A program made the translations under genes and the position numbers. Below are positions 4,699-27,157 of a DNA stretch of 50,699 nucleotides, piece by piece. Numbering within the stretch: position 1 is the first letter of the stretch; every line of letters starts with the position of its first letter. The notes beneath the pieces were generated by a model. That model was not told where the DNA came from, made no database searches, and worked only from the letters and a program-made list of their open reading frames with translations. This DNA is from a virus, in the IMG/VR virus record IMGVR_UViG_3300032931_000563, positions 1 through 50,699 of that record. One strand, 5' to 3'.

Positions 4699-5172
4699 AT
4701 GGCAAGTCGTGATAAAGCGTGGGTCTTCTCCACCGCTCAGGCCATGCCCAACGCTACCCAGTCCATCTGCACCTACATCTTCGACTGGACGAGCAGCGAA
4801 CTGATGGCCCTCAAGAACACCGAGCCGCAACTCTGGCTCGTCGTCACCTGCAACACCGTGCCGACCGGGACCTCGCTCAAGATCGAGGTCTATCAGCACA
4901 GTACCACTACGATCACCAGCGGCGATCTGCTGATGACCGGCCGGGATATGGCCGTGGCGGATATGTCCGCCAAGGCGCAGGACCCCGGCCACTGGCTGTT
5001 CCACGTGCCCGTCATGTCGGTCCTGGGCAATCTCCAGGCCGACGACGTGGACCAGTACATGGGCATCGTCATGGACGCCACCGGCAACTGCTCCGACGGC
5101 AAGATCGATGCCTGGCTGCAACATGGCCAGCCGCTGATCCCGACGACCCAGGTCCTGACCAGCAATATCTAA
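4699..5172 (+). CDS. Bbp16-like capsid cement protein
   Basis: 157 aa, behind GAAAGGAG. In BPP-1 the gene after the capsid gene encodes Bbp16, a beta-sandwich cement protein that decorates the capsid. The DKAWVFSTAQAM start, the PQLWLVVTCN strand and the alternating beta pattern fit that family. Cys residues at about 24, 52 and 133 are odd for a cement protein but may be chance. The call is from synteny and sequence style. Confidence 0.7.
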   Translation: MASRDKAWVFSTAQAMPNATQSICTYIFDWTSSELMALKNTEPQLWLVVTCNTVPTGTSLKIEVYQHSTTTITSGDLLMTGRDMAVADMSAKAQDPGHWLFHVPVMSVLGNLQADDVDQYMGIVMDATGNCSDGKIDAWLQHGQPLIPTTQVLTSNI

Positions 5173-5256: not shown

Positions 5257-7593
5257 ATGAAAAAGCGCATGATTTTCATGGCGGCGGTCCTGCTGCTTGT
5301 CACAGGGACACTGTACGCCGCCTATACCTACCCGGTTGCCAATATCGACTTTTGGCGGGCCAGTGCCTTCGAGGACGGGGGAGCCATCGATCTCTGGATG
5401 ACGGAGACCGAGGCCCTCGTCAGCGGATCGACGCCCTTCGCCTCCCTGAGCATTCTGGAGAGCACAGGCACTAACTACACCAAGATCATCGGCGGAAACC
5501 AGTCGGCAATTTTGACCTTGACTCTGCCGACGGCCTACGCGGCAACCACGGGCTATGTCCTGAGTTCGACGGATGCGGGTGTGCTCTCCTGGGTAGCCAA
5601 CGGCGGAACGTTCACCGGGGGCAGTATTACCTCTGACGTTACCCTGAGTAATGGCGTGGACATATTCTCATCCACAACCACGGCCCATACGAATAGTATT
5701 GGCGGTCGCGATATCGACGGCGCAGCCTATGTGGACGTGCTGCGCTGGACCAACGGCAACACGGTCGCAGCGGTGTTGGGCAGCGCCACAACTTCTCTGG
5801 CCGTCGTAAGCACCGGTCTGAACGTCAGTACGGGCGGTGCAATCACCGGAGCAGCGGGAGTCACCAATACCGGAGTCCTCACGAGCGCCGGCGGCGCGAC
5901 GAACCTGAATACGAGCGGTGCAGATGCCGTGAACATCGGAACGGGCACGTACTCTGGGACTGCCACCATTGGCAACAACAGCGCCTCCGTCGCCATAGCC
6001 ACCAGCCAATGGGATATCACCGGGGCTGGTGCAATGAGCGGCTTCTCCAGCTTGGGCCTGTCGGGCGATATTACGATGGCTACAGGCAAGGGCGTTCTGT
6101 CCTCGACCACGACCGCTGAAACCGTCGGGGTGTACGGATACGACAACAACGGGGCCGTGAGAGTGGGCGGCCTGGTCGTGACCAACGGCGATACCCCAAC
6201 TACCGTGCTCGGAAACGCCAATGGCACAACCGCGATTACGTCCAGCGACTGGGCCATCGGAACCACGGGTATTATGACCGGCATGGGAGCCATCACCAGC
6301 GACGGCCTGTTCACCGGCAGTCTCGGTGCCACGATCACCGGGGCCACCGTCAATCTGAACGCATCGAGCAACTTTGCCGTCAACGTGGCGACGGGAACCT
6401 CTACGGGCACTGTTACGGTCGGCGGCGATGGTACACAGGCCATCGACATCGGCAATGGAGCCGGGATCAAGACGGTCGCCCTGGGCAGTAGCAACACCAC
6501 GAGCACCACTACAATTCTCGGCGGCGACAACGGCGTCAACATCAACGTGGACAACCTGAACAATACGACCAATATCAATACCAGCGGGAGCACCGGAACT
6601 GTGACCGTCGGCGGAACTGGGATCATGGCCATAAATATCGGGGCTGGCGGCACCGGGGCCAAGACCATCGCTATTGGAGACGGCGCATCCACTGGAACAA
6701 CCACCATTAAGGCGGGGTCCGGGAAGGTGATTATCAACGCCACCAACGGCACAGTAGCCACCGACATTGGAACCGGCAATACGACGGGTGCAGTTACCAT
6801 CGGCGGTACTGGTACGCAGGCCATCGACGTAGGGAATGGGGCCGGGATCAAGACTGTGGCTCTCGGCTCGAATACGACCACTTCCGCTACGACAATCCTG
6901 TCCGGAACCACCGCAGGCGCTCTGGGTCTGAACGTATCCGCCGGCGGTGCTGTCACCAACATTGGAACGGGAACGACTACGGGAACCGTGACCATTGGTG
7001 GGGCCGGAATCCAGGCTATTGACATTGGGACCGGGGCGGCCGCCAAGACCGTCACATTGGGCAGCACGAACACGACATCCACGACAAATATCCAGGCCGG
7101 GTCCGGCGGCATCAACATCACGGGAAACGTCAACCGGACTTCCCAGCAGTACGTGCAGAGCATCGCCTATGCGAAACTGGGAGCCTCCGGGGCCGGGTGG
7201 GTCATCGGCGCTGCAGACAGCATCTCCCTGGCGACCCTGCCACAGAGTCAGACAGCCGAGAACATCGTCATCCCGATCACCATACCTCTGAAGGTCGGGT
7301 GGACGATCACGGCGTTCTCCCTCAATGGTCAAATCGACTCGGCGGGCGGGGCGGTTACACTCGACGCCGACCTGCGCAAGCTGACTGAGGCGACTGCCGG
7401 TTACGCGGACGCCAGTATCGGGGCCATTACCCAGATCGCCAAGACGGCGGACTACAAGGTGGTGGACGCCAAGAGCAGTTTGGCCGAGGTAGTCGCGGCC
7501 GACGAGTCCTACTACATCCTCGTGACTGGTACGACCGCAGCGACCACGGATATCGAGATCGCCAGCATTACGATCACCGTGACTGAACTCTAA
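5257..7593 (+). CDS. repeat-rich fibrous surface protein with Sec signal peptide
   Basis: 778 aa behind GAAAGGAATCGAAC. The first 22 residues form a signal peptide: basic KKR, a hydrophobic core AAVLLLVTGT, and a likely cleavage after LYA. The middle, about residues 190-620, is Gly/Thr-rich with recurring units of the type GTVTVGG-GTQAIDIGNG and KTVALGS-NTTSTTTI, a pattern seen in trimeric fibres and beta-solenoids. The last 150 residues look like a separate beta domain. It lies between cement and tail genes, where a fibre is plausible, but an exported N-terminus is unusual for a virion protein. It could instead be a secreted host-surface protein. Almost no Cys. Confidence 0.7.
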   Translation: MKKRMIFMAAVLLLVTGTLYAAYTYPVANIDFWRASAFEDGGAIDLWMTETEALVSGSTPFASLSILESTGTNYTKIIGGNQSAILTLTLPTAYAATTGYVLSSTDAGVLSWVANGGTFTGGSITSDVTLSNGVDIFSSTTTAHTNSIGGRDIDGAAYVDVLRWTNGNTVAAVLGSATTSLAVVSTGLNVSTGGAITGAAGVTNTGVLTSAGGATNLNTSGADAVNIGTGTYSGTATIGNNSASVAIATSQWDITGAGAMSGFSSLGLSGDITMATGKGVLSSTTTAETVGVYGYDNNGAVRVGGLVVTNGDTPTTVLGNANGTTAITSSDWAIGTTGIMTGMGAITSDGLFTGSLGATITGATVNLNASSNFAVNVATGTSTGTVTVGGDGTQAIDIGNGAGIKTVALGSSNTTSTTTILGGDNGVNINVDNLNNTTNINTSGSTGTVTVGGTGIMAINIGAGGTGAKTIAIGDGASTGTTTIKAGSGKVIINATNGTVATDIGTGNTTGAVTIGGTGTQAIDVGNGAGIKTVALGSNTTTSATTILSGTTAGALGLNVSAGGAVTNIGTGTTTGTVTIGGAGIQAIDIGTGAAAKTVTLGSTNTTSTTNIQAGSGGINITGNVNRTSQQYVQSIAYAKLGASGAGWVIGAADSISLATLPQSQTAENIVIPITIPLKVGWTITAFSLNGQIDSAGGAVTLDADLRKLTEATAGYADASIGAITQIAKTADYKVVDAKSSLAEVVAADESYYILVTGTTAATTDIEIASITITVTEL

Positions 7594-7667
7594 AGGCTTT
7601 ATCCAGTCCGGGGCGGTCCTTCCTTCATCGATGCCCGCCCCGGCTGGTTTTCTCGAAAGGAATACGT

Positions 7668-8348
7668 ATGCGACGAGCACTGTTTTTCATGGCCCTTCTG
7701 CTTCTGGGATGCTCCGCCAGCTCGCCTGCGGACCCGGTGACTGTTCCCACGGACGGAGTCGCCGCCACGCGGGTCCGTGAAATCACCATGCAGCAGGGAT
7801 GGTCCTATGCCCGCAACTTCTCGGGCAGCGGCGTCGCGGCCGCGAACGCCGGTCACGTGGATGTCAACGACGCCGAACTTGATCCCAATGCCATGACCTG
7901 GCAAAACACCGGCGGCTATCTGATGATCCTGCCGGACTGGAAGTACGACACGATCGCGTTCCTGGCCTACGGCGACGGCAACGGCGACGGCGATCCCAAC
8001 GCAGGCACGTTCGATGTCAACGTCTATCTGGTGGATTCCTATAGTTCGTGGGACCACGTCTGCGACTTCAATTGCACCGTGGGTGAACTGGAGGCCACGC
8101 ACAACCCGGTGACGGGGGTTGCCTTCAATAGCGGCAGTCTGGACCCCAACGAGTCGTACAAGTACGCCGAAGGTGAATTCGGCAGCCAGACGAGCTACAA
8201 CTGGCTCTCTACGCCTGAGTATACGGGTGATCCCAATACCATAGGACGCTGCACCCTCGATCCGTGGGGCGCGCGTGTACTAATCGTTCGTGTCAACAAC
8301 ATGAGCAAGGTCTCCTGGGTCATGCCCATCGTGAAGGGGCGCAACTGA
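7668..8348 (+). CDS. predicted lipoprotein in the virion cluster
   Basis: 226 aa behind CTCGAAAGGAATACGT. The N-terminus MRRALFFMALLLLGC is a type II signal peptide with lipobox LLGC, so Cys15 is the expected lipidated residue. The mature part is rich in Asp, Asn and Pro (VDVNDAELDPN, GDGNGDGDPN, SLDPNESY) and in beta strands. Asp-Pro-Asn-rich secreted proteins are common in Planctomycetota, which hints at the host. Function unknown. A membrane-tethered role in superinfection exclusion or in virion assembly are two possibilities. Confidence 0.7.
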   Translation: MRRALFFMALLLLGCSASSPADPVTVPTDGVAATRVREITMQQGWSYARNFSGSGVAAANAGHVDVNDAELDPNAMTWQNTGGYLMILPDWKYDTIAFLAYGDGNGDGDPNAGTFDVNVYLVDSYSSWDHVCDFNCTVGELEATHNPVTGVAFNSGSLDPNESYKYAEGEFGSQTSYNWLSTPEYTGDPNTIGRCTLDPWGARVLIVRVNNMSKVSWVMPIVKGRN

Positions 8349-8349
8349 C

Positions 8350-8970
8350 ATGGCGACGGACAAGATAGCGGTCTGCAATATGGCCTTCGGCGAGTTGGGT
8401 GACAAGACCCGCCGCATGACGAGTTTCGACACCCCGACGCACCCCTACGAGCAGGCGGCCGTGGACTTCTACCCCCAGGCGCTCGAAGAGGCCCTGACGA
8501 AAATGGACTGGCCGTGCGCCCGCAAGCGAGTGGTCCTGACGGTTTCGGTCGATGCGCCCCTGGATGAGACCTATGAGTACAAGTACACCCGGCCCACGGA
8601 TGCTGTCGTGGTCCGCAAGGTGACGGACGAGTACAACAGCGTATCGGAGTTCCTTGAGTGCACCGAGGAGCGCACGGTCGGCGAGACGGTTTACAACGAC
8701 CGATGGCTGTACTCCAGTCTGGAGAATGCCCACTGCGTGTATACCTTCCGCCTCGATGATCCGGCCGCCTATTCACCCGGACTAACTCGCTGGCTCGTCA
8801 TCCTGCTGGCGGAGAAGATCGCGCTGGCCGTTACCGGTCAACCGGCAATCAAGGAGGCGATCACGCGAAGACTCGTTGCCTATGAGGAGGCCAACTGCAA
8901 GGCGCTCGGCGGCAAGGAGGGCTATGTGGCGGATGAGGATGGAGTGGCTTTGTATACGGACCTGTTCTGA
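8350..8970 (+). CDS. tail tubular protein A (gp11-like)
   Basis: 206 aa. The start KIAVCNMAFGELGDK, then PYEQAAVDFYPQALEEALTKMDWPCARKR, are hallmark features of podovirus tail tubular protein A, the ring between portal and nozzle. Length matches the family (about 190-210). The gene begins one base after the lipoprotein stop and is followed 5 bases later by tubular protein B, as usual. Confidence 0.9.
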   Translation: MATDKIAVCNMAFGELGDKTRRMTSFDTPTHPYEQAAVDFYPQALEEALTKMDWPCARKRVVLTVSVDAPLDETYEYKYTRPTDAVVVRKVTDEYNSVSEFLECTEERTVGETVYNDRWLYSSLENAHCVYTFRLDDPAAYSPGLTRWLVILLAEKIALAVTGQPAIKEAITRRLVAYEEANCKALGGKEGYVADEDGVALYTDLF

Positions 8971-8975
8971 TCGGT

Positions 8976-11525
8976 ATGGACCTACTGCACAACAAATTCC
9001 GGTCGGGTGAGTTGAGTCCGGCGATGGCCGGGGCGGTGGACTCGCCCGCCTACAATCAGGGCTGCGCCGTATTGGAGAGTTTCGTCCTCCTGCCCGTGAC
9101 CGGTGTGACGAAGTGTCCCGGCCTCAAGTACAAGGAGTCCGTGAAGGACCACGGCGACGTGACGATCTTAGTCGGCTGCCAGTTCGGCAAGAGCGACCGG
9201 TACATCCTGGAGTTCGGCGATCTCTACATGCGGGTCTACACCGACGGCGCGCAGGTCGATTCCGGGGGACTGCCCTACGCGAAAGTGACTCCCTATCCCT
9301 CTTCCGTCCTGTACGAACTGGTCTTCGCCGCTTCCCAGGACGCCATTTACATCTACCACGGCAGCTACGAGACCCGCGTACTGACCCGGACGGCCGACGA
9401 CGACTGGACGATTGAGGAAGCGGATTTCCGGCATGGACCCCTATTGGCCGAGAATACGGACATCAATCTGACGATCACGCCCAGCGACGTGACGGGAGAC
9501 ATCACACTGCTGGCATCCGATGACCTGTTTGAGGAAGGACACATCGGCTCCGTGATGAAGATCGGTTACAGCGCCGTCGATGCGACTCTCTCGAAGATTT
9601 TCTATGCGACCCTCGACCCGAATCAGGTGAGCGACATTGCAGTGGTTGCCAAGGGTTCGCAGATCGTCTACTCCAGCTCGGACATCGGGTCCTTTACGGG
9701 CAGTGTCTACTTTGAGCGGAGTCTGGATGCCGGAACCACATGGGAAACCGTCGAGAAAGCCACTGTTCCTGCAAATATCGGCAATACGATCAGCTCAACG
9801 GACATGGATGCGATCTATCGCTTTCGGGCCGAGAATCTCGCTGATATTTTGGCGCCGTGCGGCTATAGTTGCACGGCGGCAATCACGGCTCCGGCAAATG
9901 GGACGGTCTACGGTTACGTCGAGATCACTGACGTGACCGATGCCAAGAACGCCGACGCCACAGTGACGGCGACTCTGGGAGCCGCCGAAGCGACACACAA
10001 ATGGTCCCAGTCAGCGTGGAGTGGCGAGAACGGCTACCCTGCCTGCGGAGTCATGCACGAGCAGCGCCTGTTCTCGGCGGCGACGGACGATCAACCGATG
10101 ACTCTGTGGTTCGGCAGGACGTTCCTCACGGCCAGCGACTATCTCGTCATGCTGGCGGGCACGAACGACTCGGACGCCGGCGGACGCAGCATCCCCCATC
10201 CCGGCTCGATCCAGTGGATGATCTCCACCTGGCTCCTGCTGATCGGAACGGACACCGGCATCTTCAAGGGATACGGCTCGACTACCGAGCAGCCCATCAC
10301 GCCCTCCAACTGCCACATCGTCGGCCAGTGCCCCACCGGGGCTTGCCGACTGCCGCCCATCCCCATTGCCGGGCAAATCGTCTACGGGGGGATCAATGCG
10401 CGGCGAGTCTATGAGATCGTCTACAGCGACGACACGCGGATGTACGACCCGGAAGACCTCACCGAGTTCGCCGAGCACGTCACGGCCGGGGGAATCGTTC
10501 AGTGGGCCTTCCAGCAGCAGCCCTACCCCATCCTCTGGGCGGTCACGGCCGACGGCGCGCTGATCGGCTGCACTCGTGATAAGAGGACCGACCTCAAAGG
10601 CTGGTTCCGCAGAACGACGGACGGTCTGGTCGAGAGCGTGGCGGTCATTCCCGGCGATACCCAGGATGAAGTCTGGTGCGTCGTCAAGCGGACCATCGGA
10701 GTCTCGAGTTACCGCTTCGTGGAGCAGATGCAACCCTTCGAGTGGGGCACGGAGCAGCGGGACTGTTTCTTCGTGGACTCCGGGGTGACGTGGGACGGCG
10801 GGGCCGCCAAGACAGTCACCGGAATCACCGTGGACCCTGTAACGAATCGAGTGACCGTCGCCGCCGCGTTGCACGGCTTCTCGAATGCGTATAAGGTGCG
10901 ATTGGCCGGCGTGGTCGGTATGACGGAAGTCAACGGCTGCGTCTACACGGTCGCCGACGCGGCGGCCGGCACGTTCGTTCTCCGGACCAGCGACGGAGGC
11001 TCCTACGTGGATGGGTCCGCCTTCAGCGAGTATGAATCCGGGGGGACCGCCGAGCGAGTCGCCAATAGCATCGCCGTGGCGCACCTGGAGGACGAAACCC
11101 TGGCCATTCTCCGGGACGGATTGGCGACGACGGGAGTAGTGGCCGGCGGAGTCGTGGCGTTCGGAGATACCGACGACTGCTATTTCAATACGATCCACGC
11201 GGGCTTGCCCATCCCAGCCGTTCTGGAGCCGATGTGGCCTGAAGTCATGCTGCCGACGGGCGTGAGTCTCGGCCGCAAACGGAAGATCACCTACCAGGGT
11301 ATTCAGGTCTATAACTCGCTGGGTGGCACGATGGGTGACGCCCAGAAGCAAACCGCTATCGAGTATCGTGAGCCCGACCAGATCAATCCCGATCCGGACA
11401 ACCTGCACACGGGGTTCTACGAGGGTTCGGCTTCCGGTGAATGGTTGACCAAAACGCGAATCCGAATCGAGAATTCGGACCCGTATCCAATGACCGTACT
11501 GGCGATTCGTTTCGCAATGGAGTGA
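8976..11525 (+). CDS. tail tubular protein B / tail nozzle (gp12-like)
   Basis: 849 aa. The N-terminus with NKFRSGELSPAMAGAVDSPAY and VTGVTKCPGLKY is diagnostic for the podovirus nozzle family, which forms the distal tail tube. Strand-rich throughout. The segment GMTEVNGCVYTVADAAAGTFV near residue 650 is a domain often seen in these proteins. Length is typical for the family. Tubular A lies immediately upstream. Confidence 0.9.
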   Translation: MDLLHNKFRSGELSPAMAGAVDSPAYNQGCAVLESFVLLPVTGVTKCPGLKYKESVKDHGDVTILVGCQFGKSDRYILEFGDLYMRVYTDGAQVDSGGLPYAKVTPYPSSVLYELVFAASQDAIYIYHGSYETRVLTRTADDDWTIEEADFRHGPLLAENTDINLTITPSDVTGDITLLASDDLFEEGHIGSVMKIGYSAVDATLSKIFYATLDPNQVSDIAVVAKGSQIVYSSSDIGSFTGSVYFERSLDAGTTWETVEKATVPANIGNTISSTDMDAIYRFRAENLADILAPCGYSCTAAITAPANGTVYGYVEITDVTDAKNADATVTATLGAAEATHKWSQSAWSGENGYPACGVMHEQRLFSAATDDQPMTLWFGRTFLTASDYLVMLAGTNDSDAGGRSIPHPGSIQWMISTWLLLIGTDTGIFKGYGSTTEQPITPSNCHIVGQCPTGACRLPPIPIAGQIVYGGINARRVYEIVYSDDTRMYDPEDLTEFAEHVTAGGIVQWAFQQQPYPILWAVTADGALIGCTRDKRTDLKGWFRRTTDGLVESVAVIPGDTQDEVWCVVKRTIGVSSYRFVEQMQPFEWGTEQRDCFFVDSGVTWDGGAAKTVTGITVDPVTNRVTVAAALHGFSNAYKVRLAGVVGMTEVNGCVYTVADAAAGTFVLRTSDGGSYVDGSAFSEYESGGTAERVANSIAVAHLEDETLAILRDGLATTGVVAGGVVAFGDTDDCYFNTIHAGLPIPAVLEPMWPEVMLPTGVSLGRKRKITYQGIQVYNSLGGTMGDAQKQTAIEYREPDQINPDPDNLHTGFYEGSASGEWLTKTRIRIENSDPYPMTVLAIRFAME

Positions 11526-11530
11526 CGATT

Positions 11531-12100
11531 ATGGCAGGTGGCGCAGCAGCAGGAATCGCAATTGCGAATACCGTTATAGATATCGGGGCCTATTCGGCAC
11601 AGACCGACGCCCTGCGCGCCCAGGCGAAGGGGTACGAGTATCAGGAGAAGTATTATCTGGAACAGGGGGCCAGGGCACTGAAACAAGCCTACGAGACGGC
11701 TCAGGACGTTGCCATTGAAGGCCAGGCGGAAATGGGAGAGATGACAGCCGCGTTCGGCAAGCAGGGCAGTCTCCTGGAGGGCAGTCCCTTGCTGGTGATC
11801 GCGGAGGCGGTGGACCGTATCTTCAAGAACACATCGCGGATCATCGAGCAGGGTTGGGCCGACTATCGCTCCTATTTCTGGGCGTACAGGACGGCGCACA
11901 TGAACAAAGAGGCGGTGCAGAGCGCGGAAACGGCGGCCGGATGGCAGTTGGCTGGCAATATCGTCAATGACTGGGCTTCGGCCTATGGCATGGGCGGCGG
12001 GGGCAAGGACAGGGGCGGCCAAGCAGGTTCAATATCGGGGGCCACGCCGCAGTCATCGTCCTACAATCAACCGATCTCCGGTCAAAAGGTGTACGCGTAA
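11531..12100 (+). CDS. internal virion protein (gp14-like position)
   Basis: 189 aa. A hydrophobic Gly/Ala-rich N-terminus (AGGAAAGIAIANTV) is followed by a long helical part (QAKGYEYQEKYYLEQGARALKQAYE) and a QGSLLEGSPLLVIAEAV segment, as in the small internal virion proteins that help form the DNA-ejection channel. The C-terminus is Gly/Ser-rich. Its stop shares a base with the next start (TAATG), so the pair is coupled. The call is from position and pattern. Confidence 0.7.
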   Translation: MAGGAAAGIAIANTVIDIGAYSAQTDALRAQAKGYEYQEKYYLEQGARALKQAYETAQDVAIEGQAEMGEMTAAFGKQGSLLEGSPLLVIAEAVDRIFKNTSRIIEQGWADYRSYFWAYRTAHMNKEAVQSAETAAGWQLAGNIVNDWASAYGMGGGGKDRGGQAGSISGATPQSSSYNQPISGQKVYA

Positions 12101-18233: not shown

Positions 18234-20785
18234 TTCAGCGAGTCTTCGCGATAGGACTGACTCTAATCCTCTTCTCATCCTCGTTGGCCACGGTTCCTAC
18301 GGATGCCTCGAATATGGCGGGTCCCTACGCCTGCAACGGCGCGCTCAAGGCGTTCACGTTCTCGTTTGCCCTGACGGACGACGACGATCTGAAGGTTGTT
18401 CTGTACGACAGCGCGGGTACGCCGACGGTACTGACCAAGAGCACGCACTACACGATGCGGTCGGCCAACTCGAACAATCTGTACGACTGGTCGAGGGGCG
18501 GAACGGTCACTACGGTAGCGACCTATGCCGCCGGCAATACGATTGTCCTGTACCGGGCTACTCCCGGCACGCAGTTGACCAACCTAGCCGGGAATCTGGA
18601 AGTCATCGAGACCGCGCTGGACAAACTGACCTACGAAGTCCAGGACTCCAAGGCCATGTTCAATCGCTGCCTGAAAATCCAGGTGACGGATACGGGTGAT
18701 ACCGTGACCCTCCCAATTGCCGGGACGGCAGGATACGTGTACCGGGCAGTCAACGGCAACTACGGCATCGCCGCACCACTGGCCAGCCAGACAACCGTGC
18801 ATGCCTACTGGGCAGGAGTGCTCGACGAACCGAATCTGCCCGACTCCCTGACGGCGATGGCGATGGACCCGGCGGCACGCCAGTTCATTCTCGATACGAA
18901 CGATCTGGACAGGGCCAACGCCATCGCCCAGAACGCCATCATCGACGCCAACTGGTTCGGCGCCGACGGGAACGGAGTCACCGACGACACGAGCTCCCTT
19001 CAGGAAGCCGTGGACTACGCCATCGCGCACGGGCGAGAGTTTCGGCTGGGGGCCGGAACGTACCGGATAACCGACACCCTCATCATTGGGACGGGAACAT
19101 CGGTCGTCTCGGGCTTTCGCATGATCGGTGACGGCTTGCCCACGATCTTGTGGGACGGGGACCCGAACGGACTTGTCATGGACGTTGTCAGTCTGGAAGA
19201 CAGCACTATCGAGGGCCTCTTCATCGACGGGAACGACTGCACAGGAGTTACCGGGCTCAAGATTCGAGCAGCGGCGACCTTCCCCAGTCAGCATGTCATG
19301 CTGAAGCAGGTATCCATTGCGAACTGCCAGCTGTACGGCGGTCTATTGGTTCAGGATGCCAACGCCACTTGCGACTACATTACCCTGGAGGACTCTGTCC
19401 TGTATGACAATGGTGTGAACCTGAGAATCGAGGGCGATGTCCGGCAAGTGACTTGTACTGGAGGTGCTTTCCTGACGGCTACAACCTATGCCCTGGACGT
19501 GAATGAGGGCTGCTTCGCCGGCTACAACACGTTCTTCGGGCGCTCTGGTACAGCGGATATCTACCTCGGTGGTGCATTGTCGGGTCTTAGTCTGCACACC
19601 AGTAAGCACGAAAGCGACAAGATTCTTGAGACTGGCCCGTCCGCCGCTTCCTACTCGCCTCTGACCCCTGGGATCGTCTTCGATCACGTCTCTCAGGACT
19701 TTTACAAGACGCCTTGGACGGAACAAGTGGCAGTAGACTACAACTGCTACAAGACCTTCAAACTCGTCTCCTGCCACTTCATCGGCGATGTGAATATCGG
19801 AACTTCCTCACTGAACGTAACATCCGATCAGACCGAGTTTGTTCCGTCTGCCTATACCGGAGTAACGGCCGGATTCACTGGAGATACGGATAGGGTCAGT
19901 GAAATCGGCCGTGGAACGGATGGCTACCCGAACTACTACAACGGACCCATCCAGATCGTTCAGAGTCCTCCGTGGTACGCACGAATCCAACTGCTGAGCA
20001 TGGCAGAGGACTACTACCAGCCCTTTTATTCGTCGGATGTCGAGCCGAATACACCCTATCTGGAGAAGGGTGCGGTCGTTTTCAACAATACGTGGATTTC
20101 GGGTGACTACGCCGGATGGATTTGCACTACGGCGGGCGATCCTGGAACCAGTACCCCTGCCGTCCTACAGCCTTTCGGTCCTATCGGAACTGGATCGGGC
20201 GTTGGCGGGTCGGATACCCAAGTTCAGTTCAACGACGGCGGACTCAATCTCGGTGGTGACGCCGGCCTGACCTACAACAAGACCACGGACTCCCTGACGG
20301 CGGTGGGCACGGTGACGGCGGCGAACTTCGTACCGACGGCCAACACGAGTTTTCAGATGAAAACTGTCACGGTACTCATAGACATACATACAGGAGGTGG
20401 GTCTGATTACAACTTTGATGCGACGCAAGCCAACACAACTGCTCAGATATTAAATCTGGCCAATGTGTTGGTTGCCTATGCCGAAGGCGTGAGCTGCCAG
20501 ATGAGATGTATTGAAGCCGTCGGTGGGCCATCCTCTATTGCTTTCTCACTGGGTACATCCAGCGGCGGCTCAGAACTCACAACGGGAAGCGCAAATACCG
20601 TAGGGACCATATTCGGCCTTGGGGTAGGAGGTTGGCCGGTCCCGGCAGCGGCAAGTGGGGCTCGATCAGTATACGTCCAAGGTGTGCCGACAGCGAATTG
20701 GAATACAGCCGCAAGCACGGGACGATGGCTATTCGAGTTAACGTATCTCGACAAGGGAAGTGCGTACACTTTGAGGAATCCGTGA
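18230..20785 (+). CDS. tailspike: signal peptide, gp17-like N-domain, pectate-lyase-like beta-helix
   Basis: 851 aa; the ATG overlaps the stop of the giant protein (ATGA). Residues 1-20 form a signal peptide (QRVFAIGLTLILFSSSLA). Residues about 25-150 resemble the T7 gp17-type tail-attachment domain: FTFSFALTDDDDLKVVL, then VLYRATPGTQLTN and LEVIETALDKLTYEVQDSK. From about 240, NWFGADGNGVTDDTSSLQEA and FRLGAGTYRITDTL open a pectate-lyase-superfamily right-handed helix, as in depolymerase spikes. The C-terminal region has GSDTQVQFNDGG, common in phage fibres. A virion-attachment domain behind an export signal is unexpected. Confidence 0.8.
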   Translation: MIQRVFAIGLTLILFSSSLATVPTDASNMAGPYACNGALKAFTFSFALTDDDDLKVVLYDSAGTPTVLTKSTHYTMRSANSNNLYDWSRGGTVTTVATYAAGNTIVLYRATPGTQLTNLAGNLEVIETALDKLTYEVQDSKAMFNRCLKIQVTDTGDTVTLPIAGTAGYVYRAVNGNYGIAAPLASQTTVHAYWAGVLDEPNLPDSLTAMAMDPAARQFILDTNDLDRANAIAQNAIIDANWFGADGNGVTDDTSSLQEAVDYAIAHGREFRLGAGTYRITDTLIIGTGTSVVSGFRMIGDGLPTILWDGDPNGLVMDVVSLEDSTIEGLFIDGNDCTGVTGLKIRAAATFPSQHVMLKQVSIANCQLYGGLLVQDANATCDYITLEDSVLYDNGVNLRIEGDVRQVTCTGGAFLTATTYALDVNEGCFAGYNTFFGRSGTADIYLGGALSGLSLHTSKHESDKILETGPSAASYSPLTPGIVFDHVSQDFYKTPWTEQVAVDYNCYKTFKLVSCHFIGDVNIGTSSLNVTSDQTEFVPSAYTGVTAGFTGDTDRVSEIGRGTDGYPNYYNGPIQIVQSPPWYARIQLLSMAEDYYQPFYSSDVEPNTPYLEKGAVVFNNTWISGDYAGWICTTAGDPGTSTPAVLQPFGPIGTGSGVGGSDTQVQFNDGGLNLGGDAGLTYNKTTDSLTAVGTVTAANFVPTANTSFQMKTVTVLIDIHTGGGSDYNFDATQANTTAQILNLANVLVAYAEGVSCQMRCIEAVGGPSSIAFSLGTSSGGSELTTGSANTVGTIFGLGVGGWPVPAAASGARSVYVQGVPTANWNTAASTGRWLFELTYLDKGSAYTLRNP

Positions 20786-20787
20786 CC

Positions 20788-21111
20788 ATGAAACGACTTG
20801 CTCTATTCATTTGTCTGCTTCTTCTGACGACCGTTGTAGGGGCTCCGAAAGCACTTCGCTGCTACGATTGGAATGGGAAACGCTACACGGTCGTGAGGTT
20901 TGACGATGGCACAACTGCCGAGATCAAGGGCAAAGTGACCGATGCAGAATCCGTCTTCCTTACCAAAGCGACTGCTCTTGCCAGTGCGGTTGCCGTTGTC
21001 GTGAAGGAGCCCGTCCTGCTGGAATCGTGCAGTCTGATCGAGTTGAAGGCTGAGATCGCCAAGCGGGGACTAACCGCGAAGGACTTGGGCCTTGAGGTTG
21101 CGAAGCCATGA
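20788..21111 (+). CDS. small secreted protein
   Basis: 107 aa with a signal peptide (KRLALFICLLLLTTVVGA, likely cut after VVGA). The mature part has two Cys, a short strand region (YTVVRFDDGTTAEIKG), an Ala/Val-rich stretch and a terminal helix pair ending IELKAEIAKRGLTAKDL, which recalls HeH/LEM-like helix-loop-helix motifs. Its TGA overlaps the next ATG. No ribosome site stands out, so it may be coupled to the tailspike gene, whose stop is 2 bases upstream. Function unknown. Confidence 0.62.
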   Translation: MKRLALFICLLLLTTVVGAPKALRCYDWNGKRYTVVRFDDGTTAEIKGKVTDAESVFLTKATALASAVAVVVKEPVLLESCSLIELKAEIAKRGLTAKDLGLEVAKP

Positions 21112-22841
21112 AGAAGCTGATTTCTGTACTCTTTGTTCTGTTCGTCGCCTCGACTGTCTGGGGTGATGCTCATACCACAGATTCTTCTGGCTTGTTCTCA
21201 GCAGCCGCTACATGGACGGGAGACTCTCTGCCGATTGCCGGGGACTCTTGGACGATCTCGGCGGGCAATACTGTACGGTATGACATCACGGCGGCCACGG
21301 ATTGGGATGCCATCACGATTTCCGGGACCATGACGGGCGGAGATGCCGTTGCGGACACCAACAACTACTACCTGAAGGCTTCGGGGAACATCGTGGTTTC
21401 TGACGGCGGGTCATGGACTATCGGCACGAGTCGGTCTGTGCCTCTCCTTCAAACGGCTACCTTCACGATTGAGATGGATGGGGCCTACACAATCGGAGAT
21501 TCGACGACTGGTGCAATTGATTGGTACTGCACCGAGCCGACCAACAAGTACGTAACCCTGAGTGGTTCTGAGGCAATAGGACAAACTGAACTTGGCATCA
21601 GTCAGAACGTCAGTGCGGACATCTGGGCAGCTGGAAACACCATTTCGATCTGCGATATCGACGGCGCACAGGAGCACGAGACTCGTGTGATTGACGCAGG
21701 GGCGATTGCTGCGGACCACATTCACGTTACTGCTGGCCTGACGGCTGCAAAACTCTCCGGGGCATACATCCTTCTGTGCAATCGCAACATCAAGATCATC
21801 GGTGGATCGGGAGCGGCGCAGATCCTATTCTCTTCAGTGTCTGATGACACGATTGACGCCTGGGGCTACTGTGCCACAGCCGCACAGGGACATGCGGTTT
21901 CCGGAGGGTCCGGCAATACCCTTGGTGGATACTGGGGCGTGGGACCGACGAGTGGATGGGAGACGGGATGGGCACGGGTTTACTCCTCCAGCCCCAGAGG
22001 AACTCTTGTGGGTGCTGCAAGCGGAGAGGTATACGTATTTTACTTGACGGCTTATGGTTCCGTCTCGGGAATTTGTGGTGGAAATGTGCAAGTCTATCAA
22101 CATAGTCATTCTGGATACTTTTCAGGAATCGCCATAGGGCAAGATTATGTGTTCGCAAACAGTTCAGGAGGTATATTCTTAGGGACCGGAATTGGAAACG
22201 GTTCGATCTACTACTATAGTAACAACGGCATAATGATCGGGGCAAATATCACCAGTGGAACCTACTGCTGGCGACGCTTAGGCAACTGTATGGCGCGGGA
22301 TTCTGTGATCGGCACGACGGCAGAGGAATTTGAGTTCACGGACGTTTACGTCCGGCCAGACCAGTGGATTGCATCCTACGACCACGACGGCACGACCGGA
22401 GCCGAGAAGTTCGTTAGTCTCGGCGGGAACACGCTCAGCGACACGGCCAGCCCGCCAACGGGATTCACGACCTATTACACACACACCTGCACCACGGCAA
22501 CGTACTGGAATTTCAGACAGCAGCCGATGATTGTTCAGGCCGGGCAGGGCATACGAGTATACGGATGGATCAAACAGGCAGGAGATGATCTGAGTGCCGC
22601 CCCGCCGAAAATCGAGATCATCGACCAGTTCGAAGACCCGCTCGTCAGCGGCAGTTACTCCGCTCTGGCCTCATGCAATATACCCGTAAGCAACGGGACC
22701 GTGACAACTTGGCAAAGTGTGAGCACGAAGTACACGAACATGACCGCGCTCGCCAAGCCGGTGTGGATTCGGGTCTCCTGTAAACATGCTTCAGCCGTAG
22801 TATCAGAGTGCTGGAAAGTGGATGTCGATAGGTCATATTAA
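21108..22841 (+). CDS. secreted beta-helix protein with G8-like start
   Basis: 577 aa, ATGA-coupled to the previous gene. Signal peptide KKLISVLFVLFVASTVWG. The early mature part (TWTGDSLPIAGDSWTISAG, then NTVRYDI) resembles the start of G8-type carbohydrate-associated beta domains. Residues 200-420 are Gly/Ser/Tyr-rich short strands as in beta-solenoids. The C-terminal 150 residues look like a separate jelly-roll. It may be a second spike, a receptor-binding protein, or a secreted surface protein. Confidence 0.65.
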   Translation: MKKLISVLFVLFVASTVWGDAHTTDSSGLFSAAATWTGDSLPIAGDSWTISAGNTVRYDITAATDWDAITISGTMTGGDAVADTNNYYLKASGNIVVSDGGSWTIGTSRSVPLLQTATFTIEMDGAYTIGDSTTGAIDWYCTEPTNKYVTLSGSEAIGQTELGISQNVSADIWAAGNTISICDIDGAQEHETRVIDAGAIAADHIHVTAGLTAAKLSGAYILLCNRNIKIIGGSGAAQILFSSVSDDTIDAWGYCATAAQGHAVSGGSGNTLGGYWGVGPTSGWETGWARVYSSSPRGTLVGAASGEVYVFYLTAYGSVSGICGGNVQVYQHSHSGYFSGIAIGQDYVFANSSGGIFLGTGIGNGSIYYYSNNGIMIGANITSGTYCWRRLGNCMARDSVIGTTAEEFEFTDVYVRPDQWIASYDHDGTTGAEKFVSLGGNTLSDTASPPTGFTTYYTHTCTTATYWNFRQQPMIVQAGQGIRVYGWIKQAGDDLSAAPPKIEIIDQFEDPLVSGSYSALASCNIPVSNGTVTTWQSVSTKYTNMTALAKPVWIRVSCKHASAVVSECWKVDVDRSY

Positions 22842-22852
22842 GGGAGAAACGA

Positions 22853-23170
22853 ATGGCAGAATCGAAGAACGGTACAGGCAATCTGTTGGTCAAGTCGATC
22901 AGTAGCGCCGGGCTGCTCGCATTGCTGGGAGCGGCCGCATTCGGCGGGTTCGAATGGCGTCAGGTCAAATCACTCGAAACCGAGGTAGCGAGTCATTGCG
23001 AACGGCAACTCGTCGAACTGAAAGAGCAGGCACTTCGGGACCGAAGTCAGGACGCGGCCACCGGGATGCAGGCCGAAGTGCTCGCCAGGATCGAGGGCAA
23101 CACGAGCGGTATGCAAAAGCAATTGGATGAGCTGACCAAAGACATCAAGGTTCTGATGCTGAGACCGTGA
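22853..23170 (+). CDS. membrane-anchored coiled-coil protein
   Basis: 105 aa behind AAGGGAG. One membrane segment near residues 17-33 (SAGLLALLGAAAFGGF) is followed by a charged coiled coil to the end. This architecture is that of inner-membrane spanins or small holin-associated proteins, so a lysis role is possible. It could equally be a virion or membrane adaptor. No outer-membrane spanin partner was identified nearby; the lipoprotein at 7668 is far away and larger than usual. Confidence 0.6.
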   Translation: MAESKNGTGNLLVKSISSAGLLALLGAAAFGGFEWRQVKSLETEVASHCERQLVELKEQALRDRSQDAATGMQAEVLARIEGNTSGMQKQLDELTKDIKVLMLRP

Positions 23171-23181
23171 AGGGACAGACG

Positions 23182-25071
23182 ATGTGGATAGATCGACATT
23201 CCAAATGGTGGATTATCATGATCCTGAGCTTGGCAGCTCTGCTCGGCCTGGCTATCGACGAGGTCACGGATGGCGCCGTATATTACTGCGATGCGGTGAA
23301 CGGCAATGACGCCAACAATGGACTCTCTGAGGAGGAGGCGTTCAAGACGATCCACAAAGGAGTCTGGACTGTCCCGGATGGTCAGGGGCCTCTCTATTTG
23401 ATGACGGGCAACTACCCGTATGAGGAATGGTATCCAGGAACCGGGTATCCGACTCGAACGCAGTATCTCGTGGTGACGAAGTTGCCCGGTCACACTCCGG
23501 TAATCGAGCAACTATCCGTTTATTACGGGATGCATTGGTGGCTTGACTTCTACCAACTGACGTTCGACCTTCCGAACACAGGCAATCCGCCTGGGGCCAG
23601 TCATGTCCTTTGGCTTCGCCGGGGAGCTTATCTCAAGGTGCGCGAGTGCATCGTCAAGGGTGTGCTCCAGGCGGCACCGGGGGATCCGCGATACCGGGCC
23701 GACTACTGCAACCTGGACGGAATCAAAATCTTGGAAGCCTCGCTGGATATGTCGGGTTGCCACGACATCCTCGTCCAGGACAATACGATCTCCGAGTGCG
23801 GCCATTGCGCCGTCCACCTGCACACGGACAACATCGGAAACAACATCGACATCCTCGACAATGAGATCAGTCAGTGTGCCTGCAACGGCAACACGATCAC
23901 CTGCGACGTTACAGTCTGGCCGAACGGCTCGAATGACGACCCGCCCTTGATTCAGGGCAACTATATCCACGAACAGACCGTCATGTGGGCAGCCGACTAT
24001 TCGATCAAAGCCCACGGGTCCGGCATCTATATCAACAGCCCCAAAGTGACGATCAATGCCAACGTGATCGACTCCTTCGGGAATACCGCCGCCATGTGCA
24101 CCTATGCGACTCCCGTGGGCATCGAGTTCAAGGATCTGATCATCACCAACAATCTGATCATCCATCCCCCCAATCCCGGATTCGAGCTGCGAAATCTGTC
24201 CTCCGGGGTCCAGATCAATCACAATACCATCATCGGCTGTGATACGGGAGTGTCGGGAATCAACAAGTTCGAGACCGGCGCTACCAATAGCCTCCTCGGA
24301 TTCATGTACTACGAGACCAAGTTGTTCGAGTACAGCGATCTGGAATTCTGCAACAACATCTATCTCATGCGCTGCGATATCTCCGTGCTGCTGGCTTCAG
24401 GGCACGTCACCGGCAACATCTTCTGGTCCATCGGCACGGGCACGACCCAGACGGCCGTCGATGCTTCGCACCCAGGAAACATCGTCCTATGCGATTCGGT
24501 TGACGACTCCAACTCCGTTGATTTCGAGACCGGCGGAGACTACTTCGCCGGCGGAGTGTGGTTCAATGCCAATGCCTTCGAGCCCGCCGTGGAAGGCGAT
24601 TTCTACTGGAGCGCCGGTGAGGCAGGCACGCCCGGCCATGCCTTCGATCTGGTCGCCGGGGCATCGGCCGTCAACTTCGGCAGCAACACGTACACGGCCC
24701 TGTACGACTTCTGGAACACGGAACGAACAGACGGACACCCGGACTCAGGCTATCACGAAATCGGCGGAGGCTCGCCCCCCAATACCGCCCCCGTCCTCGA
24801 CGCCATCGGGGCCAAAGCCGTGCGGGAGCTGAGCGTCCTGACGTTCGATGTGAACGCCACCGACGTGGACTCCGACCCCTGCACCTATTCGGCCGACGAT
24901 CTGCCCACCGGGGCCGCGTTTGTCAGTCCCACGTTCCGCTGGGTCCCCACGGATGACCAGGCCGGAACGTACGTCGTCTACTTCGAGGTCAGCGACGGTA
25001 CGGATACCGATTTCGAGTATGTCACCATTACCGTCAACCCCAAACGCAAGTGGTTCATTGGAAGGAAATGA
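23182..25071 (+). CDS. secreted parallel beta-helix protein with Ig/cadherin-like C-terminal domain
   Basis: 629 aa from an ATG behind AAGGGACAGACG. An N-terminal hydrophobic segment (WWIIMILSLAALLGLAI) acts as signal or anchor. Residues 30-60 (VYYCDAVNGNDANNG) are the DUF1565-like opening of right-handed beta-helix proteins. The helix follows with many Asn/Ile turns. The last 95 residues (NTAPVLDAIGAKAV and a later FEVSDGTDTDFEYVTITV) form an Ig/cadherin-like domain very common in secreted proteins of PVC-group and related bacteria. It looks acquired from a host gene. Possible carbohydrate-binding spike. Confidence 0.7.
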   Translation: MWIDRHSKWWIIMILSLAALLGLAIDEVTDGAVYYCDAVNGNDANNGLSEEEAFKTIHKGVWTVPDGQGPLYLMTGNYPYEEWYPGTGYPTRTQYLVVTKLPGHTPVIEQLSVYYGMHWWLDFYQLTFDLPNTGNPPGASHVLWLRRGAYLKVRECIVKGVLQAAPGDPRYRADYCNLDGIKILEASLDMSGCHDILVQDNTISECGHCAVHLHTDNIGNNIDILDNEISQCACNGNTITCDVTVWPNGSNDDPPLIQGNYIHEQTVMWAADYSIKAHGSGIYINSPKVTINANVIDSFGNTAAMCTYATPVGIEFKDLIITNNLIIHPPNPGFELRNLSSGVQINHNTIIGCDTGVSGINKFETGATNSLLGFMYYETKLFEYSDLEFCNNIYLMRCDISVLLASGHVTGNIFWSIGTGTTQTAVDASHPGNIVLCDSVDDSNSVDFETGGDYFAGGVWFNANAFEPAVEGDFYWSAGEAGTPGHAFDLVAGASAVNFGSNTYTALYDFWNTERTDGHPDSGYHEIGGGSPPNTAPVLDAIGAKAVRELSVLTFDVNATDVDSDPCTYSADDLPTGAAFVSPTFRWVPTDDQAGTYVVYFEVSDGTDTDFEYVTITVNPKRKWFIGRK

Positions 25072-25072
25072 C

Positions 25073-26512
25073 ATGCGTAGAACAATCCTACTTCTGGGCC
25101 TGTGCCTGACGGGCGTCTGCTGGATGGCCATCCCCGCCGAGCAGTGCCAGGCCGCAATCCACGCCTCCACGGTCTGGGAGTGCCGAGCCACGGGCAATGT
25201 TGCCAACGGCGGCGGCTACAACCCAGCCAACGCCACACCCGGAACGGATCGGTCGCAACAGGATGCCGCCGAGGATTCAGGTACGGACTTAGCGTGCGCC
25301 GACGGAGACGCAGCCAGTCCGGTCGTCACCTCTGCCACTCACAACTTTGTCGATGCTGACGAGGGAAACATCATTCGGATCAGTGAGGCCGGAACAGGAT
25401 TCACTCTCGGCTGGTATGAAGTCGTCTCAACCTCAGCCAATGCAGCTACCCTTGACCGGGCCTGCGGGGCCAACGGCGCTCTGACTGGCGGAGACTGGGC
25501 ATTAGGCGGGGCGATCGCGCTGGGCAGTACCGCCATCGACGCCGAGTTTTGGCAGGCTGGGTCCGGCAATGGAGTCGTCGCCGGCAATACCGTCTACTGC
25601 AAGGGTGCCTGGAGCCTGTCCGAGGCCATGAACGCCACGGGCAACGATGGCACGGGGGCGTTGCCTATCAAGGTCATCGGCTATGCAACCACCAGAGCGA
25701 CGATCCCCTATGGCGACGATTTGCCCAACTGGGATATGGGTGCCAATGCCTTCGTCATCGGTGATTACTGGATCGTTCGCAATATCCATCTGACGGGAAC
25801 CGGAACCTACGTAATTTCGCCCTATGCCAACTGTGTCCTCGACAACTGCATCGTGACGAATACCAGCGGCACGGCGAACCGGTCGGCTATCTACCCTGGA
25901 GGCACCGACACAACCTTTCGGGGTTGTATCGTCTCCAGTACGAATGGCTACGGGATCGAAGCCGGAGAGGTCTGCCAGCGGGTCCTCGATTCCTTCATCT
26001 ACACCTCTGCGGCCGGCATGCGGCTTGGAAATCGCAGCGTAGCGGTGAACAACGTCATCTACAACTGCACCATCGGCGCGTCACTTCTCGGCTACGGCCA
26101 TACGTACTACGGCAATAGCTTCTCGACGTGTGCCACCGCGTTCAGCGGCGGTGAAAACAACGCCTGCACGATTATCAACAACATCATCGACAATAGCGCT
26201 ACGGCCGAGGCAACGTGGACAAGCGCTCAGATGACCTACTGTGCCTACAACTGCTGGGGCGAGGCCACGCCAACCCTGACGAACGTGACCGCTGGAATCA
26301 CTGACATCCTGTCCGATCCTGGTCTAACGAGCCCAGCCGGTGGCGACTTCACCGTGGGGGCCGCCAGCGTCGTTCTCAATGCCGGCAGTTTCAACGGAGC
26401 TAATCTCGGCCTGACCGGGGCCTACAAACAGAATATCGGAGTCGACCAGGATGACCAGACGGCAGGCGGCAGCACTGTGATCATGACCCCGGACCCCGTC
26501 TTCATCCAATAA
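25073..26512 (+). CDS. secreted beta-helix minor structural protein
   Basis: 479 aa from the ATG one base after the previous stop; GGAAGGAAATGAC lies before it. Signal peptide RRTILLLGLCLTGVCWMAI, probably cut after CQA. The segment HASTVWECRATGNVANGGG, then TDRSQQDAAEDSG, is a recognisable opening of beta-helix proteins found near tail genes in many uncultured phages. Asn-rich helix turns follow (IIYNC, IINNIIDN). Several Cys could form disulfides after export. A receptor-binding or host-surface role is likely. Confidence 0.68.
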   Translation: MRRTILLLGLCLTGVCWMAIPAEQCQAAIHASTVWECRATGNVANGGGYNPANATPGTDRSQQDAAEDSGTDLACADGDAASPVVTSATHNFVDADEGNIIRISEAGTGFTLGWYEVVSTSANAATLDRACGANGALTGGDWALGGAIALGSTAIDAEFWQAGSGNGVVAGNTVYCKGAWSLSEAMNATGNDGTGALPIKVIGYATTRATIPYGDDLPNWDMGANAFVIGDYWIVRNIHLTGTGTYVISPYANCVLDNCIVTNTSGTANRSAIYPGGTDTTFRGCIVSSTNGYGIEAGEVCQRVLDSFIYTSAAGMRLGNRSVAVNNVIYNCTIGASLLGYGHTYYGNSFSTCATAFSGGENNACTIINNIIDNSATAEATWTSAQMTYCAYNCWGEATPTLTNVTAGITDILSDPGLTSPAGGDFTVGAASVVLNAGSFNGANLGLTGAYKQNIGVDQDDQTAGGSTVIMTPDPVFIQ

Positions 26513-26527
26513 CGAAAGGAGCTTGCC

Positions 26528-27157
26528 ATGCGCGTACTGAGAATGATACTGGTACTGATGATCTGTCTGGCCATCGGAGGGATTTCCGGCGCGGCCTATC
26601 GCAAAGGCGCGGCCTCAAAGGTCTGGTTCTTCGCCAAGGACATGGCCACCGGCCTGCCCAAGACTGGGGACGCTGCCAACATCACGGCCTACGGCTCCAA
26701 GGACTTCGGCGAGGCGTTCAAACTCACGGACACCACGGCCACGGAGCCCAACAGCACGACCCAGAAGGGCTACTATCTGTTCGACGTGAGCGCCGAGGAG
26801 ATGGATTCCAACGTGGTGAACTTCACGGCCTTGAGCACAACGGGCGATGTCAATGTGGCCGGGCCCGTCATCTCCACCCTGCCCGTCGATGCCAACGGCC
26901 TGATGGCCAGTTCCATCGAGGATCCCAACAGCGGCGCCATGACCGCCGCCGATCTCGCTGAGGCAATCTGGAACGCCGCAATCGCCACTTACGGGAGCGC
27001 CGGGAGCTATGGCCTTTCGGTGGAGACCCTGCTCTCCGGTACGACGGCGGCAGCGATCACGAACTACATCATTCAGCATGACCTCAAGAACGATGCCAAT
27101 GCCGTGCCCGGCACGGTCGGGGAGCGCATCCTCGAAGGCGCCAAGATGAAGCGCTAA
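26528..27157 (+). CDS. last gene of the virion cluster, exported, phage-type
   Basis: 209 aa behind ACGAAAGGAG. N-terminal signal peptide LRMILVLMICLAIGGISGA. The next part (YRKGAASKVWFFAKDMATG, LPKTGDAANITAYG, and later QKGYYLFDVSAEEMDSN) is a pattern often seen in small proteins at the end of phage tail clusters. C-terminal half helical and acidic. No gene follows on this strand and a dense palindromic region begins directly after, so it ends the rightward transcript. Confidence 0.65.
   Translation: MRVLRMILVLMICLAIGGISGAAYRKGAASKVWFFAKDMATGLPKTGDAANITAYGSKDFGEAFKLTDTTATEPNSTTQKGYYLFDVSAEEMDSNVVNFTALSTTGDVNVAGPVISTLPVDANGLMASSIEDPNSGAMTAADLAEAIWNAAIATYGSAGSYGLSVETLLSGTTAAAITNYIIQHDLKNDANAVPGTVGERILEGAKMKR

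Follow-up and report, generated by a model that had tools for sequence, protein, structure and literature searches.

Predicted Sec leaders on outer virion proteins of a podovirus lineage suggest that assembly may finish outside the cytoplasm

Tailed bacteriophages are usually taken to assemble wholly in the cytoplasm. Virion proteins with Sec signal peptides, exported before assembly, are known from filamentous phages (pIII and pVIII of M13/fd), and the exported proteins of tailed phages include Sec and SAR endolysins, spanins and the lambda protein Lom. Published examples are an endolysin with a signal peptide encoded by a tailed phage (PMC8951688) and Lom as a tailed-phage Sec substrate (PMC12309495). 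Endolysins, spanins and Lom have the host envelope as their target and do not belong to the virion. The absence of a signal peptide has been used as evidence for a tail component (PMC13097943), with similar reasoning in PMC6199706. No precedent for signal-bearing tail parts was found in the literature searched, which left out preprints and many subscription papers.

The window, the whole 50,699-nucleotide stretch of viral DNA analysed here, is that of a podovirus with a Carin1/T7-type tail. Its gene order is the same as in Cobetia phage Carin1, with homologous portal, capsid, adaptor, nozzle (PDB 8ck1_A) and fibre anchor (PDB 8ck1_B), and it encodes a PF12236-family portal, adjoining adaptor and nozzle, and a gp17-like fibre anchor. 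No signal peptides were scored in the Carin1 and Pelagibacter phage regions compared, whereas the window's outer parts have leaders. Virion proteins free of export signals are the usual, if informal, podovirus trait, from which the window's spike and post-cement protein and the nozzles of its relatives depart. Filamentous phages, an unrelated kind of virus, are extruded through the envelope and have neither icosahedral head nor lysis; they are recognised by inovirus coat genes without a capsid, whereas the window has capsid, portal and tail genes. In the window and a group of related, uncultured short-tailed phages, export signals sit on the spike, the putative head fibre and, in relatives, the nozzle, which suggests that some tailed phages may finish assembly outside the cytoplasm.

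Export-type N-termini in the window

Leaders were called with a home-made rule-based scorer that uses a von Heijne-type matrix; its performance was checked with nine established leaders (Sec or lipoprotein) and five proteins of the cytoplasm. The sequence-only reading had placed eight export-type N-termini in the morphogenesis cluster, and all eight open reading frames and leaders were recovered (Table 1). Six, starting at 5257, 18230, 20788, 21108, 25073 and 26528, are clear Sec signal peptides with the type I features of a positive n-region, a hydrophobic core and small residues at -3 and -1. The 7668 product displays the type II arrangement, a lipobox (LLGC) with the cysteine after the hydrophobic core and serine at +2, while the 23182 product is borderline, with a weak von Heijne score of 4.7, and may carry an anchor instead. 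Ribosome sites (GAAAGGA or GGAAGG) lie ahead of 5257, 7668, 25073 and 26528. If 2% or 5% of genes had a leader by chance, eight among 19 structural-strand genes would have p of about 1.6e-9 or 1.8e-6, respectively; 3/230 shadow open reading frames of the window (1.3%) scored as signal peptides.

Table 1. Features of the window, with predicted leaders
Feature	Position	Strand	Evidence or remark
Portal (head-tail connector)	17..1741	+	PF12236 E 1.5e-60, phrog_332; no signal peptide
Scaffold-like protein	2665..3510	+	phrog_3742, phrog_458, position; no signal peptide
Major capsid protein	3613..4668	+	PF20911 E 1.4e-46; no signal peptide
Cement / head-decoration protein	4699..5172	+	phrog_427, phrog_122 weak; no signal peptide
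778-aa post-cement repeat protein, putative head fibre	5257..7593	+	Sec signal peptide MKKRMIFMAAVLLLVTGTLYA|AY
226-aa protein	7668..8348	+	lipoprotein-type signal MRRALFFMALLLLG|C
Tail adaptor (TTPA, gp11-like)	8350..8970	+	phrog_394 E 1e-23; no signal peptide
Tail nozzle (TTPB, gp12-like)	8976..11525	+	phrog_376 E 5e-146; no signal peptide
Internal virion proteins, 219 / 499 / about 1545 aa	11441..18233	+	phrog_418, phrog_6651; no signal peptides
Spike signal peptide, 20 aa	18230..18289	+	MIQRVFAIGLTLILFSSSLA; GGAG upstream, ATGA overlap with previous gene
Mature tailspike: gp17-like tail anchor (residues about 21-150), then beta-helix	18290..20785	+	
107-aa protein, Sec signal peptide	20788..21111	+	scorer
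577-aa protein, Sec signal peptide and G8 domain	21108..22841	+	PF10162 E 3e-7
105-aa protein, one membrane segment	22853..23170	+	holin-like by appearance only
629-aa right-handed beta-helix and He_PIG protein	23182..25071	+	PF13229, PF05345; weak signal peptide or anchor
479-aa protein, Sec signal peptide	25073..26512	+	DUF5123-like (below cut-off)
209-aa protein, Sec signal peptide	26528..27157	+	scorer
162-aa protein, Sec signal peptide	48484..48972	+	resembles small outer-membrane beta-barrel by appearance only

No signal was scored for the window's core virion genes (portal, scaffold, capsid, cement, TTPA and nozzle) or for its internal protein genes at 11441, 12100 and 13596. The true start of the major capsid protein probably lies downstream of 3613, and the cement protein shares 56% identity with L007:6603-7094. 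A homologue of the 5257 product, also with a signal peptide, occupies the same place in a relative (L232:51-2360, 41% over 542 aa), and the N-terminal base of this family is seen in alignment A8. The 7668 homologue at the same place (L252:8577-9218; 26%, E 2e-9) has a signal peptide in which the lipobox is not kept. No Pfam match was obtained for the 162-aa product encoded at 48484.

Leaders on the spike and on the relatives' nozzles

The 851-aa spike had been read as having a gp17-like tail anchor and pectate-lyase-like repeats. The anchor was confirmed as complete behind the leader: phrog_1640 matches residues 33-148 (E 3.6e-14), the best Foldseek match is 8ck1_B, part of the Carin1 tail-and-fibre assembly, with T7 gp17 (7boz) also found, and the AlphaFold model has a pLDDT of about 83-94 over the anchor block and is poor beyond it. 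The pectate-lyase-like part matches PF12708 at E 5e-5, but this falls under Pfam's cut-off. About 90 of 97 gp17-like anchors begin at Met 1, which corresponds to the predicted cleavage point of the window spike. The concern that homologues start after the hydrophobic segment thus holds for most distant ones, but nearer relatives have the leader: SP-bearing gp17-like anchors with SD sites occur in eight lineages (window, L087, L088, L219, L221/L222, L232, L235 and L252). Since the upstream start is supported by its ribosome site and ATGA overlap, and the leader is common to these relatives, it is not an annotation error; the spike is a normal virion protein to which a predicted leader has been added.

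With the window nozzle or spike as a single-protein query, no viral contig was retrieved, and alignments were needed instead. The nozzle family profile matches the tail nozzle 8ck1_A at E 5e-170. Nozzles with a leader were detected in 28 contigs, 24 by rule and four by eye. The 24 rule-called ones have a positive n-region and a hydrophobic core, with small residues dominant at -1 and -3, and in 23 of them the predicted cut falls at -8 to -3 of the anchor, the span in which 221/230 unsigned nozzles start. The nozzle tree requires six to seven changes of state, strongly clustered, and the window lies within a 41-row clade holding 24 SP nozzles. The same SP nozzle was recovered from different metagenomes (L217/L218; L221/L222), so these genes are not assembly errors. 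Sec leaders have thus been added repeatedly to nozzle and spike, exactly ahead of the normal N-terminus, breaking the rule of unsigned tail components; genuine structural proteins would be overlooked by any pipeline in which a signal peptide disqualifies a protein as a virion part.

The position of these cuts bears on the possibility that the leaders are uncleaved anchors or targeting tags, with tail parts assembling at the inner membrane from its cytoplasmic side or the helix kept in the virion. Sequence gives just one hydrophobic N-terminal segment, and the leaders of the L009 nozzle and of 23182 score weakly for cleavage; but the dominance of small residues at -1/-3, the 23/24 cuts at the normal N-terminus and the lipobox of 7668, which only makes sense with cleavage, make this reading quite unlikely.

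The nozzle also weighs on the proposals of display on the cell, superinfection block, decoys or depolymerase release, in which export would serve a separate job and virions would be built from precursor escaping export. Many of the window's signal-bearing products are of beta-helix, G8 or Ig type, typical of adhesins and polysaccharide-binding proteins, and fibres are receptor-binding proteins. However, no role away from the virion is obvious for a core nozzle, one nozzle locus is present in most genomes checked, and neither a second copy lacking the signal nor an internal start was detected, L236 excepted. The decoy, depolymerase and display readings offered earlier do not account for a single-copy core nozzle with a signal, and we consider a separate job unlikely. 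A dual start yielding a cytoplasmic isoform was likewise rejected: nearby start codons occur in L009, L235 and a few others, and an in-frame start with a ribosome site near the mature N-terminus is present in 1/28 SP nozzle genes, that of L236.

Partition of leaders among virion parts

At the SP-nozzle loci, leaders are absent from the portal (0/6), scaffold (0/13), capsid (0/11), cement (0/20), TTPA (0/24) and an acetyltransferase-like gene (0/20), giving 0/94 for the core genes combined. Fibres at these loci carry a leader in 5/6 cases, and so do all ten aligned post-cement (putative head-fibre) proteins, two of which (L007 and the window) belong to loci that lack an SP nozzle. The nozzle count of 22/24 and the Fisher value for nozzle versus core are circular because the loci were chosen by their SP nozzle; the fair comparison sets core against fibre plus post-cement proteins. 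Over whole viral contigs, leaders are rare in replication genes. One exception to a strict inside/outside rule is the gp14-like internal virion protein L087:10573, which also carries a leader, and the partition is incomplete in the window, since the window's own nozzle is unsigned. The coordinated set of predicted exported products proposed for the structural operon is supported at the level of sequence, but it is not peculiar to this genome and recurs, nozzle included, in a podovirus lineage. Apparent leaders were also seen on two capsid-family matches (L168 and L181), and some Omnitrophota contigs have SP genes at the post-cement place.

These counts leave an artefact of wrong start codons or chance hydrophobic N-termini extremely improbable. 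The scorer is home-made, and individual weak leaders could be wrong; as a general explanation it is refuted by the 0/94 in core genes of the same loci, a shadow-frame rate of 1.3-2.8%, the SD sites, the retention of leaders in diverged relatives and the alignment of cuts to the normal N-terminus. Capture of host genes for secreted beta-helix/He_PIG proteins fits one domain of 23182 only: He_PIG domains common to 23182 and planctomycete proteins match at up to about 50%, and the match is mainly to that domain. For the tail nozzle and the gp17-type spike, such capture can be dismissed. Neither chance, wrong starts nor host-gene capture explains the leader pattern. A planctomycete host as the cause was also discarded, as relatives from planctomycete genomes show no leaders. 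The one planctomycete-like dockerin motif is in L219.

A proposed two-compartment assembly

The signals and their partition are read off the sequences; on this basis we put at about even the chance that outer parts are Sec-exported, cleaved and docked onto DNA-filled heads at a membrane breach. By analogy with known podovirus assembly, the unsigned capsid, portal, scaffold, cement, adaptor and internal (ejectosome-type) proteins would be kept in the cytoplasm, where heads would be built and filled. The spike, the post-cement proteins and many of the relatives' nozzles would be Sec preproteins; given their added leader of cleavable type, they would be threaded across the inner membrane, and signal peptidase would trim them. 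The position of the predicted cleavage sites indicates that trimming would leave an N-terminus as in unsigned homologues, and the exported parts would then fold in the periplasm. Docking onto the cytoplasmic head-plus-adaptor would await cell lysis or a holin-made breach in the inner membrane. Such late docking is plausible because podovirus assembly ends with the nozzle and fibre, and because spikes can attach outside cells, as the P22 tailspike does. Counting against it, the nozzle normally helps retain DNA in the head, so that until docking the adaptor would be the only seal on filled heads. The full scheme, in which cytoplasmic heads and a periplasmic pool of nozzles, spikes and head fibres would yield infectious particles only once they meet at lysis, is advanced tentatively, at somewhat less than an even chance. 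The lineage makes testable the question of whether tail parts matured across a membrane can still join a head.

Export might instead serve folding, through disulphides formed in the oxidising periplasm or periplasmic chaperones, with assembly by whatever route. Cysteines number 12 in the window spike, 11 in the 577-aa, 15 in the 629-aa and 13 in the 479-aa protein, several SP fibres have one within the anchor (YACNG, YFSCNG, YFVCDN), and SP nozzles in their mature form contain less Arg and Lys and are more acidic. This explanation is nevertheless very unlikely: SP nozzles are only slightly richer in cysteine (0.80 vs 0.63%, p 0.045, without correction for relatedness), and the signal-bearing 778-aa protein has no cysteine while the window's unsigned nozzle has 14.

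Virus type and leader-bearing genes of the window

The portal, capsid, adaptor, nozzle and internal-protein matches listed in the table identify the window as a podovirus of the Carin1/T7-tail type, and its nozzle family matches the solved Carin1 tail nozzle (8ck1_A, E 5e-170). Nozzles of the group, including the window's, contain an E1 ubiquitin-activating-enzyme FCCH-like insert domain (PF16190; PDB E1 matches), and some carry very large inserts.

N-termini were scored with self-written rules (n-region charge, 10-residue hydrophobic core, a von Heijne cleavage matrix, and lipobox) that recognised 9/9 known Sec or lipoprotein leaders and called 0/5 cytoplasmic proteins. All eight virion-cluster ORFs to which the sequence-only reading had attributed export-type N-termini were recovered, with six called as Sec signals, one as a lipobox signal and 23182 as borderline; no head, adaptor, nozzle or internal core gene of the window was called. 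One more scoring gene of the cluster, whose product looks holin-like, has its hydrophobic segment only from residue 20. Leaders on 8/19 genes of the structural strand (p 1.6e-9 at a 2% rate) are not explained by chance, since shadow ORFs scored in 3/230 cases in the window and at 2.7-2.8% in relatives. Distant from the structural genes, a 162-aa Sec-signal product with an apparent outer-membrane beta-barrel pattern and terminal Phe is perhaps Lom-like or receptor-masking.

Features of the window and of relatives' loci (L handles)
Feature	Coordinates (strand)	Match or N-terminus
Portal		PF12236
Capsid, GP7-type		PF20911
Adaptor	8350	phrog_394
Nozzle	8976-11525	phrog_376
Internal virion proteins		phrog_418, phrog_6651
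778-aa post-cement protein	5257	Sec signal
226-aa lipoprotein	7668	lipobox signal
851-aa spike	18230	Sec signal; phrog_1640
Virion-cluster ORFs	20788, 21108, 25073, 26528	Sec signal
Virion-cluster ORF	23182	borderline
Holin-like (apparent)	22853	late hydrophobic segment
Lysozyme, destabilase-type (i-type)	45738-46109 (-)	hydrophobic
Beta-barrel-like protein	48484-48972 (+)	Sec signal
Split nozzle (apparent)	L088:26-3627	signal on C-terminal piece
gp14-like internal protein	L087:10573-11247	extension with signal
Dockerin-like motif protein	L219:8763-9998	signal peptide
Capsid-family matches	L168:7213, L181:6890	hydrophobic, leader-like

Leaders ahead of spike and nozzle

The gp17-like anchor claimed for the spike holds: besides its profile match, the block is modelled by AlphaFold at pLDDT 83-94 over most of its length and groups in Foldseek with the Carin1 fibre (8ck1_B) and T7 gp17 (7boz), so that the spike has the build of a tail-mounted protein. 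In the homologue alignment, its predicted cut precedes TVPTDASN, the position at which the relatives L002 (MTVSSATS), L024 (MTISASTG) and L004 (MTISSTTV) start, and the first profile position is the start in about 90/97 gp17-like anchors. The leader begins at an ATG with GGAG upstream, in an ATGA overlap with the preceding gene. Judged by the alignment, it is an addition to a complete virion protein.

About 300 relatives' loci were gathered by scans with nozzle alignments. Sec-leader (SP) nozzles numbered six in the first 210 nozzle-bearing loci and, after a scan aimed at the SP-nozzle group, 24 by rule (leaving out L295, a false call) versus more than 220 unsigned, a proportion that is not a frequency because the second scan was aimed; L220, L239, L242 and L249 were added by eye. 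Leader and mature start read MKKLILFLILSSVYTSAFA and HVGVINSFNAGELSP in L087, MARCKKLIFILLLAAVTLGA and VTPGIQSFNAGEVSP in L008, and MRKICLVFLLCSVAFA and ENPYRIFNNFNSGELSP in L240. The predicted cut lies 3-8 residues ahead of the anchor in 23/24 SP nozzles, and unsigned nozzles start 2-9 residues ahead of it in 221/230. Outer virion proteins bear predicted leaders of the cleavable type, whose removal would give back the normal protein; that they stay uncleaved and serve as anchors is an unlikely reading of these termini.

Ribosome sites lie upstream of the nozzle leaders (GAAGGAAG in L008 and GAGGTG in L009 are examples), and within 12-residue windows around the mature N-terminus an in-frame start with such a site occurs in 1/28 SP nozzle genes. 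The same nozzle was found in contigs of two metagenomes (L217 and L218; likewise L221 and L222), and nozzle matches are confined to one locus in most genomes checked. In L088 the nozzle gene is apparently split into an N-terminal part and a C-terminal part of 764 aa, the latter opening with its own signal peptide, MRYLLILLLSCSSAFG.

Leader-bearing virion proteins and a proposed assembly route

In the SP-nozzle loci plus the window, L019 and L088, profile counts gave no leaders on portals (0/6), scaffolds (0/13), capsids (0/11), cements (0/20), adaptors (0/24) or acetyltransferase-like proteins (0/20), and leaders on 5/6 fibres; the nozzle count, 22/24, is circular because loci were picked by their SP nozzle. 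On gene maps, leaders occur on most genes that follow cement or lie between adaptor and nozzle. Each of the ten post-cement proteins in the alignment, whose role is assigned by position, starts with a leader (eight from SP-nozzle loci, two from L007 and the window). The window's 778-aa protein shares 41% identity over 542 aa with its L232 counterpart, and in L252 the equivalent place is taken by a homologue of the window's 226-aa lipoprotein, with a signal and without the lipobox. Across whole contigs, replication regions seldom carry leaders. A strict inside/outside rule is broken by L087, where a gp14-like protein bears a leader on an N-terminal extension; no other clearly internal protein does. 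Two capsid-family matches, L168 in a Herminiimonas prophage and L181 in a contig of a MAG, also have hydrophobic, leader-like N-termini.

We propose that the outer proteins would be exported through Sec, trimmed by signal peptidase, folded in the periplasm and docked onto heads at lysis. No cytoplasmic isoform of them was found in the sequences. That the exported proteins instead have a separate role outside the cell and reach virions by leakage is improbable, if somewhat less so than uncleaved anchors; export serving folding is very unlikely, and a need for disulphides is only weakly supported. Release by lysis is expected from ordinary-looking lysis genes, the holin-like gene and a lysozyme that is probably the endolysin.

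No report of Sec leaders on the nozzle or gp17-type spike of tailed phages was found in the literature searched. A missing signal peptide has been read as favouring a tail role (PMC13097943) or a phage origin (PMC6199706), and phage proteins known as exported are lysis proteins (PMC8951688) or lambda Lom (PMC12309495). Coat proteins are exported in filamentous phages, which belong to another kind of virus. On these grounds, the assembly route suggested for the window-type podovirus is possibly new.

Recurrence of the trait and host range

A quick IQ-TREE tree built from 89 nozzles required 7 changes of the SP label (shuffles averaged 23), at least 6 of them forced by well-supported branches. 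Gain or loss occurred across a fairly short distance between the sisters L122, with a leader, and L024, without one, and the trait is thus recurrent within the lineage. The window, with leaders on spike and post-cement proteins and none on the nozzle, falls in a 41-row group (support 99) holding 24 SP nozzles.

The contigs analysed come from metagenomes. A planctomycete host is unsupported, because nozzle relatives in planctomycete genomes are without leaders. L219 encodes a signal peptide ahead of a dockerin-like motif of planctomycete style (LNSDCWVNFEDFAIFSDGW). The leader pattern is seen in partial form on Omnitrophota contigs: in the prophage-like L364 (G533:C3, Omnitrophota genome), two or three genes with export signals lie between those for cement and adaptor, and the nozzle is unsigned.
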